A DNA stretch of 64,000 bases from NCBI RefSeq assembly GCF_024372725.1, contig NZ_VOUA01000015.1, positions 1 to 64,000 of the forward strand, in the 5' to 3' direction. The position numbers and the translations under genes are program-made. Positions within the stretch are counted from its first letter, which is position 1; each line of letters starts with the position of its first letter. The notes under the pieces are model-generated. The model saw only the letters and a list, made by a program, of their open reading frames with translations. It was not told the DNA's origin and ran no database searches. This stretch comes from Methanosarcina sp. KYL-1 (GTDB taxonomy: Archaea; Halobacteriota; Methanosarcinia; Methanosarcinales; Methanosarcinaceae). This document shows positions 17,901-35,783 of the stretch, in pieces.

Positions 17901-20900
17901 TTATACCCTGCTTTTCTTTTCTCTTGTTTTATATACTTCTGGTGGCTTCTCTTCTCCTTCTATTTTCTTGCCTATTTCCTCAGCTCTCTTCTTCTCTAAT
18001 TCAGTTGTATATTTTCCAGGTTTAATGTGTAACTCTTTTTCGTACATTTCTTCCGGTACCTTAGCCTCAGGTCTTAATTCTTCAAATTTGAATGGAGGCA
18101 TTGCTGGGTAAAACTCGAATGGAGGTGGTGAATGTTGCATTTCAATCTCAAGTTCCTTTCCCCGAATACGCTCGATACTGGGGGATAGTAAGAAAAAAAG
18201 CAAAAAAATCACAGGAATTGAAACTAATAGCAAATAATCTTGAAGACTAATATCTTTTTTAGCCAAAAGAGCATACAGGGGGCCTAAGAACGCACCAAAA
18301 AAGATCAGTAAAATAATGGCAAAAATTATTCTTTTAGTCCAACGTTTGGTGGGCGAAGATACCCACCATTCCCACCAGAAAGGCTTGATTTGAAAAGACC
18401 AGAGATTACCAATTAATTTTTTTGCAGTTCCCTCCATTGGGAACTTTGATTTCAAATTAATACATTGTTCCAATTTTTCGCTTGCTGTAAAGAAGTCTTT
18501 GATTTTGTAATAAAAACAACCTAAAAAATATAAGGTATATGCCCTTATTTCCCTATGTGACTTTTTCTCTTTACTCTCATAGCCTACCAGTTGCAGATTC
18601 AAGTTTGATAATTTGCTTCTTATGAATCCAGGATTTATTGATAGGTAGTTTAAAGCTTTTTGCACATCTCCCAGAATGCTTTTTTCCATTTTCAAGCGCT
18701 TATGGGTCAATTTTTTCTCGGTTTCATATTCCTCTGAAAAAATAGATACTTTCTCTAAATCTCTGATAATTGAAAGAAGCTCTTCCTGATATTTTGCCTT
18801 ACTGCGTAAAGAGAATTCCACATAGAGATACCTGGAATAAGTATGCCAGAGCAAAAACAATAAACACTCTGGATACAACTTTATTGCTTCTTCAAAACAA
18901 TTTTTGGCGTTATCATAATCTTCTCTTTCAATCTTGATTTGGCCTGCTAAACAATAAGCTTGGCTTCTTTCGTAATCTCTAACGTCATCCAAGCCCCGAA
19001 CGGCATTAACTTCTTTTTCAGCACCGTCAAGATTTCCAAGGTTTAAAAGAATCTTTCCTAAAATAATATGGGATACAATATTTTTTGAATTTTTCTGTGA
19101 GGAACTTATGAATGTTTTTATAGTTTCATGAGCTTTCTCATACTCTTTTTTTTCATAATAAGCAAGAGATTTGTAGTTCCATGGAAATGAAAATTCGGGT
19201 TTAAGCGTTATAGCTGCATCGAAAAATTCTATGGCTTCGTCATAATTTTCAGAATTGTAATGAATAAGCCCCCTATAGAATTGGCATGAAAATGAGGAAC
19301 TTCCACTTTCCTGGATCTCGTTGTCTACATTTGCCAAAGTTGAGATGTACGTGGAATATTTTTTATTGTCAACAATAATTTGACTTCTAATTATTTCGTC
19401 TATCCATTGTTGGTCAATATCTGAAAGCTTATCAAGCTCCTCTATTATTTTCTTCTCTACTTTTGAAAGCTTATCAAGTTCATCACAAGGTTCCTTGTCA
19501 ATTTCCTCTAATATTTTTTTACTTTCTACCGCTTCAGGAAAAATATTGCATATGGCTCTAAAAGCATCTTTGTTATTGGAGTCAATTTCAAGAACTTGAT
19601 CAAAGGCTTCTACTGCTTCTTCATATTTCTCTATTTTGCAAAAAAAGCGCCCTTTCTCCATGAGAGAATCTATGTTCTTTGAGTCAATCTCAAGAACTTG
19701 ATTGTAAAAAACGCACCCTTTCATCATGAGAGCATCTATGTTTTTCGAGTCAATTTCAAGAACTTGATCATAAGTTTTTAGCGCTTCCTCATATTCCCTT
19801 TTTTCGTAAAAAATGCGCCCTTTCTCCATGAGAGCATCTATGTTCTTGGAGTCAATTTCAAGAACTTGATCAAAGACTTTCAATGCTTCTTCATATTCCC
19901 TTTTTTCGTAAAAAATGCGCCCTTTCATCATGAGAGCATCTTTGTTCTTTGAGTCAATTTCAAGAACTTGATTGTAAAAAATGCGCCCTTTCTCCATGAG
20001 AGCATCTATGTTTTTCGAGTCAATTTCAAGAACCTTATCATAAGTTTTTAGCGCTTCCTCATATTCCCTTTTTTCGTGAAAGACACGCCCTTTCTCCATG
20101 AGAGCATCTATGTTTTTCGAGTCAATTTCAAGAACCTTATCATAAGTTTTTAGCGCTTCTTCACATTCCTGTTTTTCGTAAAAAATGCGCCCTTTCTCCA
20201 TGAGAGCATCTATGTTTTTCGAGTCAATTTCAAGAACTTGATTGTAAGTTATTAGCGCTTCTTTATATTCCCTTTTTTCGTGAAAGACGCGCCCTTTCTC
20301 CATGAGAGCATCTATGTACTTCGAATTAACTTCCAGTACGTGATCGAAAGCTTCTATTGCTTCACCGTACTTCCTCCACTTACGAAAAGCAAGGCCTATA
20401 TGGTACCAACAATCTACATTTAAATTTATATCTTGAGGAGCTAGTGATATTACTTCCCTAAAAGATTTTATCGCCTCTTCATAGTTTTTAAGTTCACTGA
20501 GAACAAGTCCTCTTAAATAAAAAGAACTGGCGTTCTTTGTGTCCAATTTAATAGCCTTGTCAATAGCTCTCAATGAATCTTGATATTTTTTGAGGTATAA
20601 GAGAACAGAGCTTTTACTTACCCATACATCAGGATTATCTGGCACCAAATCTGTGACTTTTTCATAAGCTTCCAGAGCTTCATTATACATTCCAAGATAT
20701 AATAATGAGTCTCCTTTTCCAGCCCAAGCAAAAATGTTCTCTTTTTCCAATTTAAAAACATGGCAATAGCTTTCTAAGGCCTTTTCGTACTCCTTCTGAT
20801 AAAGTAAAGAATCACTTCTGCCAAGCCAGGCAAAAATATAATCTTGGTTCAATTGAAGAACTTCTTCATATGTTACTAAAGCTTTATCGTATTGTTCAAG

Positions 20901-23430
20901 CATAAATAAAGACTCAGCTTTTCCGGTCAGAGCATCGATGTCTTCTGGATACCATTTAAGTACTCTCTTATAACTTTCTAAAGCTTCCTCATACCTTTTG
21001 AGTTGAAATAATGAATCGCCTTTACCAACCCAGGCTTCCAGATTCTCTGGATTGCAAGAAATTGCCGTTTCATATGCTTCCAAAGATTTTTTATGATTCC
21101 CCATGGATTTAAGAGCTTCACCTTTGGAGATGCAGGCTTTGATGTTATAAGGGTCCCGAGAAATTACTCTGTTATATACTTCCACAGCTTCCTCGTATTT
21201 TTCAAGAGTAATAAGAGTCTCGCCTTTGAAAATCCAGGCATCTATAATTCTAGAGTCCCTTTTAAAGGCTTCTTCATATGCTTCCAAAGCATCTTCATAT
21301 CTACCGAGACAGAAAAGAGTGATACCTTTTCCAATCCATGGATAAGGATCTCTTGGATTCTGTTTGATTTTTTGTCCATAGACAACTAAAGCATCTTCAT
21401 ATCTCTCTAAATAGTTAACAGCAAGACTAACATTAAGACCTATCATTGGGGGATTGAAAGATAAGTCACTTGCTTTTTGGTAATTTTGTAAGTACTCTTT
21501 ACACTCTCCTATATAATAATGGGCTTGACTTACATAGTAATAAATATCGGCAGCATTGTCAGGTTCTTTTTTAAGAGCTTCTTCAAAAAAACTTATTGCT
21601 TCGTCATAATTTTTAAGACAAAAATGTGTAAGCCCAATCCCTGATAATGAATATGGGTCTTCAGGATTATTTTCAATTGCTTTATAACACTTTTTCAAAG
21701 CTTTTTTATATATTTCTACGTCAAGTACAGGGGTTAAATAAGAAGGATCAGTAAAACCTAAATCAATTGCCCTCTGGTAGGATTGATAAGCATTTTTATA
21801 TTCTCCAAAAAGAAAGCACAATAGTCCCTTTAAATACCAGGCGACAGGGATATTGGATTCCATATCAAGAGCTTTTTTAAAAGAGATTCTAGCCCGATCA
21901 TAATTTTTAAAGCAAAAGTGAGCAAGACCTTCACTGGTCAACACAGCAGGATTTTTAGGATAAATTAAGAGGGTTTGATCATAGACATTCAAAGCTTTTT
22001 CGTATTTTCCAAGATATAATAATGAATCACCTTTGCCGATCAAAGCATAGAAGTTTTCTGGCTGCATTTCAAGTGTCTTTTCATAAGCCTCTAATGCTCT
22101 TCTAAATTCCCACCTATCAAATAAAAAATCAGCTTTCGCAATCCAAGAATCGATGTTTTCTGGCTGCAGTTCGAGTACCTTGTTATAAGCTTCTTCATAA
22201 ATTTCTGTAAGCTCTTCGAAATTGAGTAAAAACTCAGCTTTTGCAATCCACAGATATATATTATCTGGCTGTATTTCAATTGCTTTTTCATAAACTTCTA
22301 ACGCTTTTTGGAACTCTCCATAATCATATAATGAACTGGCTTTTGCAATCCACAGATATATATTATCTGGCTGTATTTTAAGTGCCTTGTCGTAAGCCTC
22401 TGATGCTCTTCGAAATTCTCCCAGATAAAATAATAACTTAGCTTTCAGAATCCAAGCATCGATGTTTTCTGGCTGTATTTCAATTGCTTTTTCATAAACT
22501 TCTAACGCTTTTTGGAATTCTTCGAGATTATATAATGAACTAGCTTTTGCAATCCACAGATATATATTATCTGGCTGTATTTCAAGTGCCTTTTCGTAAG
22601 CTTCTAATGCTCTTTGAAATTCTCCCAGATAAGAGAAAAAATCAGCTTTCGCAATCCAAACGTAGCTGTTTTTTGGCTGCAGTTTGATTATCTTGTTATA
22701 AGTTTTTTCATAAATTTCTGTAAGCTCTTCGAAATTGATTAAAAACTCAGCTTTTGCAATCCACAGATATATATTATCTGGCTGTATTTCAAGTGCCTTT
22801 TCGTAAGCCTCTAATGCTCTTTGAAATTCTCCCAGATAAGAGAAAAAATCAGCTTTCGCAATCCAATCATCGATGTTTTCTGGTTGGAATTCGAGTACCT
22901 TGTTATAAGCTTCGTCATAATCTTCTGTAGTTTCTCCGAGATTATATAATGAACGAGCTTTTGCAATCCACAGATTTACATTATCTGGCTGTATTTCAAG
23001 TGCCTTTTCGTAAGCCTCTGATGCTCTTTGAAATTCTCTCAGATAAGAGAAAAAAATCAGCTTTCGCAATCCAATCATCGATGTTTTCTGGCTGGAGTTC
23101 GAGTACCTTGATATAAGCTTCGTCATAATCGTCTGTAAGTTCTCCGAGATTATATAATAAACGAGCTTTTGCAATCCAAAAATAGATATTCTCCGGTTGG
23201 AGTTCGATTGCCTTCTTATAAGAATATAAGGCTTTAACACCGCCTTCAATGAACGTTATAATCTCGGCTTTGTAATACCAGGCTTCTGCATTTTTTTGAC
23301 TCATTTCATATAAAATATCTTCAAATGCATCCAATGCGTTCCTAAATGACTCCAGAGCTTCTTCTTCCCGCCCGCTATTTAAAAGAGCAAGACCTTTACT
23401 ATACCAGCCTTTGGCGTACAAAGAATGCAT
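17901..23430 (-). CDS. Giant TPR membrane protein, interrupted by a one-base frameshift
   Basis: Reading from ATG 23430, the protein (about 1842 aa if the frame is restored) is almost entirely 34-residue TPR units, followed by a C-terminal region with two hydrophobic helices (RIIFAIILLIFFGAFLGPLY and YLLLVSIPVIFLLFFLL) and a charged tail. Translation from 23430 leaves frame at an A7 tract (23050-23056) where sister repeats have A6; the rest continues in another frame, whose own ATG is 23249. TPR arrays act as protein-interaction scaffolds; the partner is unknown. Between about 19650 and 20330 the units are nearly identical at DNA level and some are internally deleted. GGGGTGATC lies just before ATG 23430. 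Whether this is a pseudogene, a phase-variable gene or a sequencing error is open. Confidence 0.85.
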
Positions 23431-26243: not shown

Positions 26244-26279
26244 AATCTCTCGAGAACCTTTCGGACGGAAATCTATAAG
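26244..26279 (+). repeat. 36-bp imperfect direct repeat, left copy
   Basis: It matches 30941-30976 at 31 of 36 positions, sharing GAGAACCTT and CGGACGGAAA. It lies 20 bp after the ATPase stop. Together the two copies bracket the AT-rich ubiquitin-like island. It contains a TATA-like CTATAAG. The rest of 26280-26640 is AT-rich and I see no gene in it. Confidence 0.75.
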
Positions 26280-26648
26280 TATGTTACGGCTAGCCTTCAG
26301 GTATACTTATTGCCTACAAATTTTTTGTGTGTTTCCGTGGGTCATTGCCTGAAAATCGTCTTATAAAAACACGATTGGTGAATGATTGTTCATTTACAAT
26401 TTTGCTGAAATCCAAAATGCTGGTTTAGCGGCTCTGTAGATATCTCCTATTTTTATGAAAATATACCTTGAAAGTATTTCAAGATTTTACTTGTTGTCAA
26501 AATGAGTATTTCCACAGAGCCAATATTTACCTATTATTTTATGGACACAGGTGGAAAATTCTAATAGTTTACAGTTGTAGATTTTTTATCCATTCCCATT
26601 TCTTTCTCAGTTAAGTTCAAATCCCCATATATCTTTTTTTACATTTTA

Positions 26649-27059
26649 TTATGTCCTAACAGCAATTTCTTCCTGATTTCTCATATATATGTCCTCTGTA
26701 AACAAGCTTTTGTTTTTTAAAATGGACATAGGCATTACTGAATAATTGTTAACAAAGTTGTTTACTTTTTTCATTAAATCAGTGTAGTCATTTTTTGCTG
26801 CCCATGAAAAAACTATTAAGTTTGTTTTTCCTCTGAATATAAATTCACATCCAAAAATTCCTTTATGATAAAGGATATTGAGCATCTTAGAGTAAGGTAG
26901 ATCTTGCATATAGTAGTTTCCAAATAAATTTTCAGAGAAAAACATCACTCTTTGATTTGTAAATACTAGGTATTTAGGCAAAATAGAGTATTTAGTTACT
27001 ACTTTCACAACAACTTCGTTTATATATAAATTATCTCTTATCTTTTTATTATCTATCAT
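26649..27059 (-). CDS. PH-domain-like protein at the end of the E1/E2/JAMM operon, 136 aa
   Basis: A small protein with a central beta-rich segment, YLVFTNQRVMFFSENLFGNYY, then LPYSKMLNILYHKGIFGCEF, a pattern typical of bacterial PH-like domains (bPH). Start ATG 27059, 17 bp after the E1-like gene's stop and on the same strand, so cotranscription is likely. The C-terminal 30 residues are outside the domain. Ligand or partner is unknown. The family assignment rests on pattern only. Confidence 0.6.
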   Translation of the reverse strand: MIDNKKIRDNLYINEVVVKVVTKYSILPKYLVFTNQRVMFFSENLFGNYYMQDLPYSKMLNILYHKGIFGCEFIFRGKTNLIVFSWAAKNDYTDLMKKVNNFVNNYSVMPMSILKNKSLFTEDIYMRNQEEIAVRT

Positions 27060-27075
27060 ATCATCTTGCCAAAAT

Positions 27076-28203
27076 TTATGTGTAAAACTTACCTCTTACT
27101 TTACAATGGTCACAATTTTCACGATGTTTTGTCACTATCGAACGTGTAATTTGTAGAGGATGATCAAAAATCATTGCCAGTTCCCCTCCCATTCGCTTAT
27201 CATTATTGTTGCAAACAAGCGTGAAATTTTTCAATGAATTAATCACTTTCGGTACATATTCGCTATCGTTTCTATTTAGTAAATCAACAATAATCTTCAA
27301 TCCTATTATAGTAATAAAGTTAATATCTAACGAGATACCTGGTTCATATGCTATTTTTGCTTCGTCTTCTTCAAATGAATAAACGTGTCTATTCACAGAC
27401 ACTCGATTGCTTAATATATTTCTTTCACCAAAAACACAATTGTAACAAGCTGTTAATCCTGGTAGGGAATAAAATATTTCTCCTGCAAAAGCTCTTTCCC
27501 AGAAACCAATACTTACAAAAGGGATGTCTAAAAGCTGTGATATCCTATTAGCATACAAGTCACTTTCTCGATTGTCGGTGGCTCCAATTATTAATTCTAT
27601 TCCTTTTTCACTGATATTTTTAAAGTCGTCTTCCGAAAGGCTTTGAATCCGAGATTTGAAAGTGGCAATTTTTGCAGACGAATTTATATTGTGGATAGCT
27701 TCTTCAACAGCGTTAACTTTGTATTTACCCACATCTTTAATCCCACATTGGTGACGACAAATATTGTGATAAGCTAAAATATCACTGTCGACTAATACGA
27801 AATTTCCAATACCCAATTTTGCCAGCTCAATTGCAATTAAACTCCCAACTGATCCACACCCTGCTATTAACACATTTTTTTTCAGGAATTTAGAACTTTC
27901 AATAATTCCTGTATTTCGAGAAAAAATATCATTAACAAGAGAATATGGTTCAATGTTGCAATCTTCATTAATACTAGTTTTGAATACTAGATCTCCATTT
28001 TCAGCATAAACACCATTTATTTGATGTGTTGTATTCACTGTAGTACTTTTTTCAATTGCACCTAAGTACTCTAGGCCATCTGTTTCAATACCTGTTATTA
28101 CATTATATGAATTTGTGGATTTATTGTAATATCCATATAAATCATATGAATTCCTTTGTTCTATATATTTCAGAGGTAAGTAAATCGTCGGTTTAGGAAG
28201 CAT
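27076..28203 (-). CDS. E1-like ubiquitin-activating-type enzyme (ThiF/MoeB fold)
   Basis: 375 aa. An unrecognised N-terminal region of about 105 residues precedes a ThiF/E1 adenylation domain: nucleotide loop AGCGSVGS (114-121), VDSD (138-141), NICRHQ with the E1 Asn/Arg/Gln set (147-152), Lys 160, and GATDNRESD (207-215). Two CxxC pairs (253/256 and 364/367) form the structural zinc site. E1-like enzymes adenylate the C terminus of a ubiquitin-like protein. I cannot identify a clear catalytic cysteine. The ATG abuts the JAMM gene stop, indicating coupling. Base composition is much richer in A+T than the flanking housekeeping genes. Confidence 0.88.
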   Translation of the reverse strand: MLPKPTIYLPLKYIEQRNSYDLYGYYNKSTNSYNVITGIETDGLEYLGAIEKSTTVNTTHQINGVYAENGDLVFKTSINEDCNIEPYSLVNDIFSRNTGIIESSKFLKKNVLIAGCGSVGSLIAIELAKLGIGNFVLVDSDILAYHNICRHQCGIKDVGKYKVNAVEEAIHNINSSAKIATFKSRIQSLSEDDFKNISEKGIELIIGATDNRESDLYANRISQLLDIPFVSIGFWERAFAGEIFYSLPGLTACYNCVFGERNILSNRVSVNRHVYSFEEDEAKIAYEPGISLDINFITIIGLKIIVDLLNRNDSEYVPKVINSLKNFTLVCNNNDKRMGGELAMIFDHPLQITRSIVTKHRENCDHCKVRGKFYT

Positions 28204-29325
28204 TTATATTCCACTCCTTTTAGAATGGTCACAATATAGTGATTCAAATTCATCTAGTGTAATTTCTTTTTCTGTCCATGATTCATAAGATTTTATCCAA
28301 TTAATTGCAAATGATAACGAATTCACGGCATTTTGAGAAACACTAAAATTATTTTCTTTGACATTTTTAACATCCTGCTGAATATAGAATTCGCCATTAT
28401 CATCTTTTCTCAGGTAAGGAATATTATCTGTACTAATTATTTTTTCTGAATTTACTATATATCCTCTTATAGGATGTTCTCCATTTTCTTTTTGAGGGTA
28501 AAAATCTTGGTAAATAATTGCTAGGAGCCAATTATTTTTTTTTGGAGATTTGACGGTGCCTAGCCACATCATTTTTCCATCTGGTAAAGTTTCAAGTTCA
28601 AATTGTGGGAACAATCTTTCCATAAGTCTTTTCTCATATTTCAGTAACTCTGGAAAATCTTGATACCATAGACTATGCTTTTGTACTAGAAGTCCATTAT
28701 TGCTTCTTTCTGTACATTTGGTTGGGAAAAATGAAAGGTTTACATCAATTGTTCTTGCAGCATAATTTTCATTTATTGTCTTATTATTCCCATTAATTGT
28801 TTCTAAAACTTCTTTGAGCGTAAATTCTTTTATATTAAACTTAGATAGCAATAATTCATGCTCCATTATTTCATAATTAATTTTACGATATTGATTATTT
28901 GCTTCAAAAAAGTACAGAGTAAACTTGAAATCAGGCATCATATTAACTAATGCAGAAATAATTCCTTCTGGAGAAATTTTTATGAAATTTGAAAACGTAG
29001 CTAAATCGGTGCCAGAAAAATCATTGAATGAATCTGGATGACGGTGCCACAAACCAAGTATTACAAGCGATCCGCCATATCTCCTTGCTATTTTGTTTGC
29101 TAAATGTGTTTGATATTCATGATCATATTCAAAATATGCTTGTGAAAAAAAAGATTTGGGTCCAGGATCAATAGTTTCAAGGACAATCCAGTAATTATTA
29201 ATCTTTTTTCCTATAAAAAGTCCACCCGTTTCTGTGGATATTCTTTCTTTTGTTTCCAGCAAGATATCTGTAAATGCTCTTTTTGAGAAAATAATGTGAT
29301 CTTCTCTCTTTTTTTTTAAATGCAT
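28204..29325 (-). CDS. JAMM/MPN isopeptidase fused to an E2-like (UBC) domain lacking the Cys
   Basis: 373 aa. The N-terminal JAMM zinc peptidase domain is complete: Glu32 in ETGGLFIG, then His94, His96-Pro97, Ser104 and Asp107 in GLWHRHPDSFNDFSGTD. Such enzymes process or remove ubiquitin-like modifiers. From about residue 225 there is a second domain homologous to the neighbouring E2-like protein (PQFELETLPDGKMMWLGTV ... AINWIKSYESW). Where the neighbour has YYLC this one has FYIQ, so the fused copy looks catalytically dead and may position the substrate. ATG 29325 is chosen because GAGGT lies 6 bp upstream; an overlapping ATG at 29394 is unlikely. Confidence 0.85.
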   Translation of the reverse strand: MHLKKKREDHIIFSKRAFTDILLETKERISTETGGLFIGKKINNYWIVLETIDPGPKSFFSQAYFEYDHEYQTHLANKIARRYGGSLVILGLWHRHPDSFNDFSGTDLATFSNFIKISPEGIISALVNMMPDFKFTLYFFEANNQYRKINYEIMEHELLLSKFNIKEFTLKEVLETINGNNKTINENYAARTIDVNLSFFPTKCTERSNNGLLVQKHSLWYQDFPELLKYEKRLMERLFPQFELETLPDGKMMWLGTVKSPKKNNWLLAIIYQDFYPQKENGEHPIRGYIVNSEKIISTDNIPYLRKDDNGEFYIQQDVKNVKENNFSVSQNAVNSLSFAINWIKSYESWTEKEITLDEFESLYCDHSKRSGI

Positions 29326-29335
29326 GTGGAAACCT

Positions 29336-29893
29336 CTAATAATCGTGAGATGCAAATTCTCTTTCCGATATATCTCCATGTATCCAAGATTCAAATAAGA
29401 ATATCCATTTGGATGCCCAACCTAATGCACTAACAGCAGTTGATGCTTCTAAAACCCTTCCTCTGTTGTCTCTTCTTGCAATAAAATTTTTTGGATCAAC
29501 AGTACACAAATAATATATTCCTTCACTATCCCTTACGGTATGTGGTATTGTGCCATATTGAGCGATTATTTGGTTTAAATCTGGTTTAATCGCGTACACT
29601 TTTATTGATCCCCCATAATCATCATTATTTGGGTGATTATTTTCGTAAATCGCAGCAAGGGTCCATAAGACTCCTCTATTCGATTTTAGTGTACCATGCC
29701 ACATAATTCTTCCATCTCCCACCTCTGCTAACTCAAACTGTGGAAAATTTCGAATCATTGCTTTTATTTCATAATCAAGCAATTGACGATTTGTGTCGTA
29801 CCAATAAAAAGCAGCGAGTTCCCCTTTAGGTACTACTATCATCTTTTCTTTATCTTTTCTGCTTTGAACATAGCATACGCTACTTTTTGTCAT
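29336..29893 (-). CDS. E2-like (UBC-fold) protein with candidate catalytic Cys130
   Basis: 185 aa. Core pattern PQFELAEVGDGRIMWHGTLK, then a beta strand WTLAAIYENNHPNN, and a C-terminal helical ASTAVSALGWASKWIFLFESW. This is the layout of E2-like proteins found next to E1-like and JAMM genes in bacterial conjugation operons (WxG strand, xxYPxxYP-like strand, Cys, W/YE-W helix). Cys130 (YYLC) falls at the position expected for the thioester cysteine. It would accept the modifier from the E1 and pass it to a target. GGGGATTC lies about 8 bp before ATG 29893. The 29336 stop is 10 bp before the JAMM gene. Confidence 0.72.
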   Translation of the reverse strand: MTKSSVCYVQSRKDKEKMIVVPKGELAAFYWYDTNRQLLDYEIKAMIRNFPQFELAEVGDGRIMWHGTLKSNRGVLWTLAAIYENNHPNNDDYGGSIKVYAIKPDLNQIIAQYGTIPHTVRDSEGIYYLCTVDPKNFIARRDNRGRVLEASTAVSALGWASKWIFLFESWIHGDISEREFASHDY

Positions 29894-29981
29894 ATTACTG
29901 AATCCCCTAATACCAATATTCTGAGATTTATGTATCTAAATACTGTACTAATTATGACCTTATTGCAAAAAATAAAAAAAT

Positions 29982-30125
29982 TTAGGCTAATTTACCTTCA
30001 GGTACTCTTATTCCTCTATCTCCTTCTTCAGCACTCCCAAGGCTCCCATCTGGCCTTGCAACTACATCTTCGCCATTTTTTAGATTTTCTCTTAGTTGCT
30101 TAAATCTATCAGTTACAACACTCAT
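29982..30125 (-). CDS. 47-aa protein at the head of the E1/E2/JAMM operon
   Basis: A short gene with a strong AGGTGAG Shine-Dalgarno 4 bp before ATG 30125. The product begins MSVVTDRFKQLRENLKNGED and ends RVPEGKLA. It is charged, hydrophilic, Gly/Asp-rich and probably partly disordered. It is too short for a full beta-grasp ubiquitin fold, yet it sits where the modifier gene stands in related operons. It may be a peptide modifier, a dedicated substrate, or a regulator. The 88-bp gap to the E2-like gene fits cotranscription. The region 30126-31045 upstream holds its promoter. Confidence 0.7.
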   Translation of the reverse strand: MSVVTDRFKQLRENLKNGEDVVARPDGSLGSAEEGDRGIRVPEGKLA

Positions 30126-30259
30126 TATCTCACCTAATATTCTTTATGATGCTATTTGGAAGATTGCCTAATGAGATCGTTCCCGTTGAACTATATAGTC
30201 ATTACCAACCTACTAACTCCAATGAAAGTAGGATTCAATCATACAAAAAGATTTTTAAT

Positions 30260-30478
30260 TTAATTTAATTTAATTATTAATTGTAATACACAAGTATTAT
30301 CAAATATCTTGTATATAGGCTCTTTAAAGTTAACAATATTTATATACAATTGACTAGATTTCGATTCAGAATCAAGAATCTCTTTTAACTCCCTGCTCAT
30401 CCTTACATATTTTTCGGCTCTTCGCTGTTTTGTATGGGTTGAAAATAATTGCTTAGTTATAAAGTAGCCAGACCAAAG
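30260..30478 (-). pseudogene. Possible gene remnant (about 70 codons, no proper start)
   Basis: An open stretch without an upstream ATG reads ...FITKQLFSTHTKQRRAEKYV, then MSRELKEILDSESKSS, ending at 30260. Residue composition looks protein-like (charged helix). An internal ATG at 30400 would give 46 aa, without a Shine-Dalgarno. It lies in the 920-bp gap upstream of the conjugation operon. I do not recognise it. Nothing else in 30126-31045 looks like a gene, apart from the 36-bp repeat. Confidence 0.3.
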
Positions 30479-30940
30479 TTATAAACATCAAGCAAGAATG
30501 TGATTTTCAACAGCACAAGTTTCTAAATCTTATACATGTTACTTCGATATCTGAAACACCGAAACCACCCCCAAAGCCGTCCATTCTGACCTTTTATTTG
30601 TGAAGTAGGATATCTGGTGTGTGTAGTGTGAGATGGTCTATTTTTCTCGTCCGTTTTGTTGACTTTTAAGCGTGAATGATGTATTACCCTTACCTTTGAC
30701 CTGATCGTGCGAAATTGGGCGGAAATTCTCAGTAGTGAAGTTGAAGCCTGGAAGCCTAGAAGCCCTTTTGCCCGGTTGCCTGTTGGATCATGTTGGGGTT
30801 TGCGTGGGTGTCGTGTGATAGCAACATAATACGAAAACGTTGCTGTTTTTGCTTCCTTGCCTTTCCAAAACGTCTATGATCTCTATATGGAATTAGTAAA
30901 AATAGCAACATTTTATGGTAAAAAGTTGTCTTCCATCGAC

Positions 30941-30976
30941 AATCTCCTGAGAACCTTGCGGACGGAAACCTATAAA
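30941..30976 (+). repeat. 36-bp imperfect direct repeat, right copy (also the SET-gene promoter region)
   Basis: It differs from 26244-26279 at five positions, four of them transitions. It ends in CCTATAAA, a TATA box about 70 bp before the SET gene, so it probably belongs to that gene's promoter. The left copy may then be a leftover duplicate made when the island inserted. Confidence 0.75.
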
Positions 30977-33075: not shown

Positions 33076-34191
33076 TTATATAATTTGTTTAGACGATTCC
33101 AACCATTTTACTTTATATTCATAGAATTGTCTTGAGACAATGTTCCATATTTCTTTAAGAATACTTTGCTTATCACTTTCAGTTAAATGATCTGAGTCTA
33201 AATCATTGATGTCGCTTTTTGTAAGTACTTTTTCAAGAGTATCGGGCTCTTCATATTTTTTTACATCCCCCGATAATCCAATCTCAAATCTTCTCTTGTT
33301 ACTTTTAGACAGTAGTTGAACAACAAATAAGCGACTTGATCTGCGATCGTGAAGAATTATGTTTGCACCCTCAAGGAAAGCACTACGTTTTTTAAGGTTT
33401 TCCAATATTTCGTTTATATCCATACGTTTTACTTCTTGGCTTCCTTTTAGATGGTTATCTTCGAAGGAATCAGATGTGTTCAGGTCATCTGCTTTATTCC
33501 GATTATATTTAATTATTCCTAGAACTTCATACTCTTTATCTAATACCTTCATAAGTTCTCTGAAGAACTCATGTCTTTTATCAGTCGTGGGAATTATAGA
33601 CAAATCACTTTCAATAAGCTTCAATTTTAGATCTGAATCATTAGAAATAATGCTACTAAGGATGCCAAATACTACAGAATAGTCAGTATCACGATTCAGT
33701 ATTAATGTAGCTATGAATGTATTTCCGATTTTTGAAATCTCAAAATTTGCTTCTCTTTTTACAGTTTCAAATATATTATAGCTAGTTACTTCATCAATAA
33801 AATATTCAATGTCTATACTTAATTTGTTAGGCTCTGGAACAATGTGAGTAATTTTGCTTTCTTTTATATCTCCAAATTCGTTACCTATGTGAGTGCTTAG
33901 ATAATCATAGAGATTTTCCAGTGTAACATCAACGTCTGCTTCCAAAATGAATCCCGAAAGCTTTGGGAAAGCTTTTACACCTGTGTATTTCAATAAATTT
34001 TCTTGAGAATCAATGCCTATAAAAAAATTTGATGCAAGGCTGGCCATCGCGTCTTTTTCGTTTGCAAATGCAAAAACACCTCTCTCTTTAAAATACTCTT
34101 GAGCACTATGGAGCCTTATATGGTTGCTACTAAAGAAAAGCTGAAGAGTATGGTAGTCTTTAAATAAGCTATTTTCTTTAGTTCCACTCAT
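33076..34191 (-). CDS. Hypothetical protein C of an AT-rich three-gene operon, 371 aa
   Basis: Soluble 371-aa protein with no family I recognise. It is rich in Lys, Glu, Asp, Ser and Ile, with mixed alpha/beta character, a predicted helix around MDINEILENLKKRSAFLEG, and a C-terminal helical tail. Its ATG overlaps the last codons of the nuclease-like gene (34188-34191), so the two are translationally coupled. Last gene of the operon. Confidence 0.7.
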   Translation of the reverse strand: MSGTKENSLFKDYHTLQLFFSSNHIRLHSAQEYFKERGVFAFANEKDAMASLASNFFIGIDSQENLLKYTGVKAFPKLSGFILEADVDVTLENLYDYLSTHIGNEFGDIKESKITHIVPEPNKLSIDIEYFIDEVTSYNIFETVKREANFEISKIGNTFIATLILNRDTDYSVVFGILSSIISNDSDLKLKLIESDLSIIPTTDKRHEFFRELMKVLDKEYEVLGIIKYNRNKADDLNTSDSFEDNHLKGSQEVKRMDINEILENLKKRSAFLEGANIILHDRRSSRLFVVQLLSKSNKRRFEIGLSGDVKKYEEPDTLEKVLTKSDINDLDSDHLTESDKQSILKEIWNIVSRQFYEYKVKWLESSKQII

Positions 34192-35099
34192 TTAGTAAAA
34201 ACTCCTGATATATCTAAAGATAGATTCATGTTGCTATCCAAACAATTTAAATTAATTTCCTTTTCAGCTCTTTTTTCCCATTCTACTTTGTATTGTTCAT
34301 ACAGAGATTTTTGTCTATAATCACCCTTTGCTAACAAGACCTCGAAAATATTGTGATTATATCTCCCGCAAAAATTTTCAACCAATTCAAGTGATTTTAA
34401 AGAGGGTTTGTCAAAAGAGATTGCATACTTTTTATCATCCAATTCAAATGGAATTATATCTGAAAATAGGTAAAACAATGATAATCTTTCATCCAGCTTC
34501 ATCCATTGGTTGACATTATAATAAGGATAATAATATTTCAATGTAAGATTTTGAACATAGTCTCTTTTTAAATTTATAAAGGCACTTAATCTATCATTTG
34601 TTAGAATAAATATTGTTGGGAAATTATTCCCCTTTTTGGTCTCGATTATCTTATATTCTTTCAATACTTTTTGATATTTATCGAGATCAAACTCATGAAA
34701 CCGATAACAAAGAATCCCATACTTAAAATAATGAATGTTATTCTTCTTTATTTTTTCATCATCACGTAATTCTTTCGACTTACTCGCGTTCTGTATTTTT
34801 TGCTTTAATGAGTCAATGTCTTTGGAAAGCCTACTTTTATTAAATAGAGTTGGATTATCAATCTTTTTACTTTCGATAATTATACCATGATTTCCTGATT
34901 CAAATGGTTCATATAGTTCATAAATGAAATCAAATCCCCTATTTTCCTCTTTATCATCATCAATCTTTAACAAGGATTTGACATCTACATTTTTATAAAG
35001 TAAATTCCATTTTACAAATTTTGAAAAAAAAGACTCTATTTCATTTTCGGTAAAAGAACCAAGTATATTTTTTCCTTCAGGGCCTTCCAGATTAACCAT
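34188..35099 (-). CDS. PD-(D/E)XK nuclease-like protein B of the three-gene operon, 303 aa
   Basis: The N-terminal third has the order of a restriction-endonuclease-like fold: an acidic helix (FTENEIESFF), then GFDFIYELYE with Asp57, then a hydrophobic strand ending in the E-x-K motif HGIIIESKKI (Glu76, Lys78). The remainder is helical and unrecognised. ATG 35099 directly abuts the stop of the upstream gene and its 3' end overlaps the next gene by 4 bp. Nuclease function is inferred from the D...ExK pattern only. The operon's AT-richness and context suggest a defence or mobile module. Confidence 0.68.
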   Translation of the reverse strand: MVNLEGPEGKNILGSFTENEIESFFSKFVKWNLLYKNVDVKSLLKIDDDKEENRGFDFIYELYEPFESGNHGIIIESKKIDNPTLFNKSRLSKDIDSLKQKIQNASKSKELRDDEKIKKNNIHYFKYGILCYRFHEFDLDKYQKVLKEYKIIETKKGNNFPTIFILTNDRLSAFINLKRDYVQNLTLKYYYPYYNVNQWMKLDERLSLFYLFSDIIPFELDDKKYAISFDKPSLKSLELVENFCGRYNHNIFEVLLAKGDYRQKSLYEQYKVEWEKRAEKEINLNCLDSNMNLSLDISGVFTK

Positions 35100-35783
35100 T
35101 TATAGATCTCCTGAATCGATGTGGTGAACAAAATGGATGATAATGTCGATGTTATCTTTTCTGCAGTTTTTAAATAGAAAGGATCCATTTTTGTGAATTG
35201 TAATAGATGAAGTATTTCCATCGTAACTTTCTAAGGATAATTTTATCTTTTCCACTTTTTTTCCATATTTAGCTATAACACTTAGAAGGATTTCTTTGTC
35301 TTTTATATTAGCAATATATTTACCCACCATCAAATCGCCATAATTAAATCCATTGATAACTGCTTGTTCACTTCTCACAATAAACTTTGAATTAGTTAAC
35401 AAATTAAGTAATTTTTGAAAATCTATTTCCAGAACATAGAAAGATATTCCAAAGATATTCGAGAGCCTTTTCAAAAGAAAGTCACTTTGTTTTTTTCCTG
35501 AAAAAATAATCATCATTTTGTTTTCTAGGTCCAATTGGAAATTGGTTTCCCTAATTACTTTTTCTGTCCTTTTGCAGTATCCATTATTATATTCCCCATA
35601 GGTAATTGGAACTTCTCGTAAATATTGGAAACAAAATAACTTATCTGAATTGTTGCTTAATAACGAGAAACCTTCGTCTGAGATCAAAGGATTAAAGGGA
35701 CTGTTTATTATTTGATTGACATCATCTGTATTAATTGATGATGCAATTTTGCTAACAGATGCTGATCGAAATCTGTACTCCAT
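35100..35783 (-). CDS. Hypothetical protein A, first gene of the three-gene operon, 227 aa
   Basis: Unrecognised 227-aa soluble protein, alpha/beta in appearance, with alternating strands such as KMMIIFSGKKQSDFLLKRL and IFGISFYVLEIDFQKLL. Starts at ATG 35783 and ends exactly one base before the nuclease-like gene begins. Upstream (35784-36196) there are 410 bp of AT-rich DNA in which I see no gene. Confidence 0.68.
   Translation of the reverse strand: MEYRFRSASVSKIASSINTDDVNQIINSPFNPLISDEGFSLLSNNSDKLFCFQYLREVPITYGEYNNGYCKRTEKVIRETNFQLDLENKMMIIFSGKKQSDFLLKRLSNIFGISFYVLEIDFQKLLNLLTNSKFIVRSEQAVINGFNYGDLMVGKYIANIKDKEILLSVIAKYGKKVEKIKLSLESYDGNTSSITIHKNGSFLFKNCRKDNIDIIIHFVHHIDSGDL

Follow-up and report, generated by a model that had tools for sequence, protein, structure and literature searches.

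Which protein do the ubiquitin-like conjugation enzymes encoded in a 64,000-bp stretch of the Methanosarcina sp. KYL-1 genome (contig NZ_VOUA01000015.1, positions 1 to 64,000, the window below) act upon? The window contains five minus-strand genes, coding for a 47-residue protein, an E2-like protein, a JAMM peptidase fused to a second E2-like domain, an E1-like ThiF enzyme and a PH-domain protein. Their order and place (26649-30125) agree with an original prediction made from the sequence, as confirmed by the open reading frames (ORFs). That prediction described an E1/E2/JAMM conjugation island and filed it with bacterial defence operons. Our analysis points to the shortest of the five products as the missing piece: the island was probably acquired with its own candidate modifier, which belongs to a family of short peptides matching no catalogued family.

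The relatives of the island were collected in several searches. When 84,980 genomes were scanned with both E2s of the window, two Bacteroidales loci came up, L007 and L008 (genomes G238 and G239). Searches of the Bacteroidota order and phylum added G342 and G666, and two further relative searches added none. The viral collection contributed L023 and L061, which by eye look actinobacterial and clostridial (Actinomycetota- and Bacillota-like), respectively, as well as L027, a fecal clone labelled ‘Bacteriophage sp.’ that carries the same E1. Plasmid searches with the E2 and a phage search with the JAMM gave no matches. Among the 238 genomes of the class and the 295 of the phylum sample the system is confined to the window's genome. 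Between lineages, the E1s are 39-49% identical and the E2s 39-51%. The conserved neighbourhood on which the original prediction hung does exist, as the gene set is kept in other genomes.

The significance of the 47-residue protein was missed by the original prediction. It is a member of a family of conserved modules of ~47-65 residues found in every complete related operon. When the module profile was built without the window copy, this ORF was the only significant match among the 537 ORFs of the window (E=4.2e-9), scoring 31.6 bits versus at most 9.9 bits in 2000 shuffles. The E2 N-terminus in L007 and L008 is made of two tandem module repeats, ~48-53 residues each, which follow the pattern (A)GEDAAAKKRRELRERL.KGETVKI...EATVEVGKGKLA. 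In G342 and G666 a single copy is fused to the E2 N-terminus, and L023 and L061 encode the module on its own, in a gene (63 or 65 residues) located directly before E2, at a distance of ~ten bases, and ending with ...APEGKLA and a stop. GKLA is invariant in all complete copies of the module, as are further L, G, V and G residues. All three separate modules (window, L023, L061) stop exactly at the Ala of GKLA. Searches of Pfam, NCBIfam, PADLOC and PHROG with the module gave no match, and comparison of its profile with the PDB produced only designed proteins and helix matches without a shared function. We also considered the 47-residue ORF as a truncated beta-grasp domain and rejected this on sequence, not structural, grounds: it has no family match and is too short. 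Stretches resembling the module tail can be seen at the beginning of other proteins as well. A membrane protein of the Bacteroidales operon (L008:5105-5665) starts with MNQSFNIPAGKFAGE, a tail-like motif as in the module-E2 starts, and similar starts are present in L061 (VPAGRFA) and L034 (IPTGYLY).

From the presence of the module in every complete operon, the invariance of GKLA and the exact stops at Ala, we infer a modifier role for the module, which would be activated by the E1, carried by the E2 and removed by the JAMM peptidase; we consider this more likely than not. Tandem short units with a fixed end placed before E2, along with free copies stopping at this very end, correspond to the way ubiquitin-type modifiers are encoded, and the same principle is seen in polyubiquitin and in the fusions of multiple ubiquitin-like proteins (polyUbl) to E2 in the Iyer type 6e operons. 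Further support comes from the invariance of the E2 Cys130 and of the JAMM active site residues, from the lack of matches to a beta-grasp ubiquitin-like protein (Ubl) or a CD-NTase in the island, from MccB being the best solved match of the E1 and, by analogy, from the type II cyclic oligonucleotide-based antiphage signalling systems (CBASS), where the cyclase is activated via its C-terminal Gly/Ala. In the related operons, too, no protein was recognised as beta-grasp.

Such a system would perform compact, self-contained and reversible protein tagging. The E1 would adenylate the C-terminal Ala of the 47-residue protein, the activated peptide would be passed to Cys130 of the E2, which would couple it to an amine of the target, a protein or a lipid, and the JAMM would take it off again. 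In the relatives, the JAMM might also free the module from a module-E2 or module-module-E2 precursor by cutting after GKLA. The Cys-less, UEV-like E2 domain of the JAMM protein may bind the charged modifier or the E2 and position the protease. The genes and their homology, the conserved residues, the module with its invariant GKLA end and the insertion are observed; which species is activated, in what order it is transferred, where the JAMM cuts and what is tagged are inferred. The system may serve defence, or it may regulate a process at the membrane or in secretion.

Several observations weigh against the module being a modifier. In four genomes it belongs to the E2 polypeptide and could be a regulatory extension of the E2. 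Several modules themselves start with a tail-like motif (VPAGRFA, IPAGKFA). In the double-module E2 of L008, AlphaFold gave the modules a confidence below 60 and did not resolve their fold. Of the E1 cysteines, just Cys149 is invariant across seven relatives; it lies within the adenylation site, in an N-x-C-R-H-Q motif, and no other conserved Cys offers itself as a candidate for a thioester. Finally, just about seven operons are available, with G238 and G239 being close relatives and L023 and L061 too (their E2s are 82% identical), which reduces the separate GKLA-ending modules to about two independent cases.

If the window protein were such an extension acting in trans, e.g., a docking element for the E1 or JAMM, the conjugated species would be encoded elsewhere in the genome, for instance as a MoaD/ThiS/SAMP-like Ubl. 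Besides the location of the module within the E2 chain in four genomes, this would agree with the N-terminus of the window E2, where a module-tail-like stretch VVPKGELA is followed by AFYW (weak profile match, E=0.078); the stretch is perhaps a remnant of a former module-E2 fusion. However, neither tandem duplication nor exact GKLA stops are expected of a docking element, and a gene set mobile across domains would rarely rely on a host Ubl. We regard the docking role as unlikely. Another explanation is that the GKLA module serves as a substrate or localisation motif, and the proteins bearing it get modified or cleaved. The tail-like IPAGKFAGE at the beginning of the membrane protein in the L008 operon and a partial module in the dead-E2 protein of the same locus could be understood in this way, but a second complete module was not found in the window's genome, and a C-terminal Ala end suits an activated carboxylate more than an acceptor, leaving little probability for such a motif. 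Elsewhere in the window's genome the P[E/K]GK[L/F]A pattern occurs at control level, with one other match, which is not at a protein end.

The E1 has a ThiF domain (Pfam, E=2e-29) and an additional N-terminal region of ~90 residues. Its nucleotide loop GCGSVGS (GxGxxG), Arg150, Lys162 and Asp210 are conserved among aligned relatives. Both the loop and the CxxC pairs pointed out by the original prediction are present, but the pairs are missing in two relatives and therefore look structural. When the E1 family profile was compared with solved structures, the best match was MccB (2.5e-17), then UBA5, Cap2 and MoeB; similarity to BubCD was weak (2.2e-6). MccB, an enzyme of microcin C7 synthesis, activates a short peptide by adenylating its C-terminus. 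It makes an antibiotic and acts without an E2 or JAMM, whereas the island E1 comes with both.

The E2 is without a Pfam family and is matched by the PADLOC CBASS E2 models at 6.6e-12. Cys130 is the sole Cys kept in all of the seven stand-alone E2s compared; in the alignment it coincides with the Cys of a CBASS-like E2 fused to a CD-NTase (G798). When the double-module E2 of L008 was modelled with AlphaFold, the E2 core was resolved only moderately. The Foldseek matches of this model in the PDB are mostly UBC/UEV domains (UbcH10, UBE2S, Ubc13, TSG101), individually weak (best E 0.06, probability 0.87), in agreement with the UBC fold which the original prediction presumed for this family.

The JAMM protein matches Prok-JAB (Pfam, E=7.6e-7). 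Its predicted active site residues E32, H94, H96, S104 and D107 are all in place and invariant across aligned relatives. This numbering is the one used before, since translation likely begins at the ATG at 29325, right behind the E2 stop; an alternative upstream TTG is located at 29394. The C-terminal E2-like domain of the JAMM protein shares 38% identity with the stand-alone E2 and lacks the equivalent Cys, so the window does encode two homologous E2-like domains, one with and one without the Cys, as had been proposed. The JAMM-fused domain is presumably catalytically dead. A second, Cys-less E2-like protein carrying part of the module is present in L008, so the window is not alone in having an active/dead E2 pair. 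AlphaFold modelling of the JAMM-E2 protein (373 residues, 7 sequences) was too poor to be of use (mean confidence 49.7, meaningless matches), and the dead-E2 assignment is consequently based on sequence homology. Altogether, an E1 domain with its nucleotide loop, a Cys-bearing UBC-fold E2 and a JAMM with the E-HxH-S-D residues place the island among E1/E2/JAMM systems; the activated modifier with a free, conserved C-terminus that also belongs to such systems would be the GKLA-ending module. A stand-alone JAMM, ~40% identical to the N-terminal part of the window JAMM, was also seen on two Gloeothece conjugative plasmids (L005:4977-5522, L006:4974-5519); it adjoins a WD40 protein, and neither E1 nor E2 was seen beside it.

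Is the island then a known defence system? Its description as an E1/E2/JAMM conjugation island holds for domains and residues, but its filing with CBASS or Bil does not. No match was found for a CD-NTase in the island or its near neighbours, or for a beta-grasp Ubl in any island protein (Pfam, NCBIfam, PADLOC), no effector was matched in or beside the island, and the E1 and E2 are separate genes. We searched for the defining features of CBASS, Bil, Bub, Iyer 6e and Pup, and the island does not have those of any of the five. In type II CBASS, the cyclase is not of the beta-grasp kind; Cap2 forms a thioester with its conserved C-terminal Gly/Ala, and a tandem cyclase fusion is cut by Cap3 at the cyclase C terminus (PMC10097602). 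In the Bacillus cereus CBASS, the last Ala of the cyclase becomes joined to PspA lysines (PMC11153139). The island is similar to Cap2/Cap3 systems in its E2 sequence family, JAMM isopeptidase and E1 and, as far as the candidate peptide is concerned, in a presumably non-beta-grasp cargo with a C-terminal Gly/Ala. It differs in having separate E1 and E2 genes, while Cap2 combines E2 and E1 in one polypeptide, in the absence of CD-NTase and effector matches, in its cargo candidate, a 47-65-residue peptide, and in the Cys-less E2 domain borne by the JAMM.

One could still suppose a diverged type II CBASS or a Bil-like antiviral system with an unlinked or unrecognised effector or CD-NTase. The E2, JAB and E1 of the island all match PADLOC CBASS models, the E2 profile reaches the CD-NTase-E2 fusion of G798, and the context is mobile. 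Apart from the missing CD-NTase, effector and beta-grasp Ubl, what speaks against this is that the family is a conserved gene set of its own, which includes the module and in several loci is paired with EssC-type secretion genes. We find it rather improbable; it would concern the purpose of the system and is compatible with the module being a modifier. An antiviral role is possible but unsupported. In the G798 locus (L035, 6449-7927), the CD-NTase-like domain is fused to an E2 of the related family, and a patatin-like fragment is adjacent, by eye.

The Iyer type 6e operon consists of a polyUbl, an inactive E2 and a JAB-E1, and its modifiers are beta-grasp proteins of 70-75 residues (PMC1779556). 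Tandem units of a modifier (in the island family a candidate one), their fusion to an E2-fold domain and a catalytically dead E2 are common to these operons and the island family. In the island, however, the JAMM is fused to an E2-like domain and not to the E1, and the module of its family is shorter, has no beta-grasp match and, where fused, is joined to an E2 that keeps its Cys. Bil and Bub operons also combine E1, E2, JAB and a small modifier, either separate or partly fused; their modifiers are ubiquitin-like, whereas the island candidate is a 47-residue peptide without a Ubl match. Pup is a short non-beta-grasp peptide modifier, as this candidate may be, but it ends with Gly-Gly-Gln/Glu and is ligated by PafA, which is unrelated to E1/E2, while the island peptide ends with GKLA and is accompanied by E1/E2 enzymes.

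More tentatively, we suggest that these loci may define a new class of E1/E2-conjugated modifiers: non-beta-grasp, GKLA-ending peptides of ~47-65 residues, encoded by genes of their own or in one polyprotein with the cognate E2. An MccB-like E1 would activate them and a JAMM would take them off. Mobile elements would have distributed this class over Bacteroidota, probable Bacillota and Actinomycetota and one archaeon of the Methanosarcina class, often in connection with type VII secretion-like genes. The usual cargo of E1-E2 cascades is held to be beta-grasp proteins, and to our knowledge CBASS cyclases are the one clear documented exception. If an E1-E2-JAMM set does conjugate a 47-residue peptide, such cascades are able to evolve with a minimal tag at their centre, bridging the ubiquitin and Pup styles of tagging; should the peptide prove to be activated, it would be categorically new as a modifier. 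Separate genes for E1, E2, JAMM and modifier constitute a small testable system, with the archaeal copy being testable in a genetically tractable group.

The link of the related loci to type VII secretion was also missed by the original prediction. An EssC/FtsK-type ATPase gene adjoins the conjugation genes in G238, G239, L023 and L027, and small WXG100-like proteins were recognised by eye in G238, G239 and L023, the latter without a Pfam match. A second EssC-like ATPase stretch is present in the L007 genome on a contig other than that of the conjugation locus (G238:C9:3438-3929). No EssC match was found in the window's genome, and in G342 and G666 only weak matches are located away from the operon, so the cassette can stand alone. 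A 2024 survey of type VII secretion system variants mentions no ThiF, JAB or Mov34 components (PMC11217815). Given the repeated EssC neighbourhood, one may ask if some bacteria control type VII secretion through peptide conjugation. Recombinase genes are located near the conjugation genes in L023, L027, L034 and L061.

In Methanosarcina sp. KYL-1 the system resides in a clean insertion, which had gone unnoticed before. Same-genus comparison genomes share the genes flanking the island. In two sister genomes (G151 and G161) the match to the window extends up to 26230/26271 and resumes directly at 30941/30945, leaving an empty site with a single copy of the 35-nucleotide repeat between the ATPase and SET genes. 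The GC content of the island is 31%, compared with ~52% in the ATPase gene on its left and 46-50% on its right. Direct repeats of 35 nucleotides (89% identical) on both sides of the island and a single copy at the empty site are what acquisition with target duplication would leave, although the repeat may also be a part of a promoter region. As the only genome of the class sample to have the island is this one, it might be taken for a recently acquired non-functional element, with the dead E2 and the short ORF as decay products. Yet the ORFs are intact, ribosome-binding-like sequences (aggtga, agggga, gagg and ggagtg) precede the starts of the first four genes, the catalytic residues are invariant and the 47-residue ORF is conserved with other phyla, so we consider decay very improbable. 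The product of the last gene matches bPH_3 (Pfam, E=9.2e-11), and no counterpart of it was recognised in the other operons.

Table. Features of the acquired island and its boundaries in the window.
Feature	Coordinates	Strand	Basis
47-residue candidate peptide modifier, C-terminus ...VPEGKLA	29982-30125	minus	module profile match, aggtga upstream
E2 (UBC-fold), putative catalytic Cys130	29336-29893	minus	PADLOC E2 match, invariant Cys130
JAMM isopeptidase (N-terminal) with Cys-less E2/UEV-like C-terminal domain	28204-29325	minus	Prok-JAB, active-site residues
E1/ThiF-like adenylating enzyme	27076-28203	minus	ThiF match
Bacterial PH-domain (bPH_3) protein	26649-27059	minus	bPH_3 match
Left copy of 35-nucleotide imperfect direct repeat	26244-26278	unstranded	89% identical to right copy
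Right copy of 35-nucleotide direct repeat	30941-30975	unstranded	repeat comparison, sister empty site
Inserted AT-rich island, ~4.7 kb	26279-30940	unstranded	absent in two sister genomes, GC

An Rfam search of the island and a tRNA scan of the 64-kb window gave no matches. To the right of the island, three consecutive minus-strand genes (33076-35783) with 28-31% GC and no Pfam match possibly constitute another acquired island. A 1782-residue protein consisting mostly of tetratricopeptide repeats is encoded at 17901-23249, with ~35% GC.

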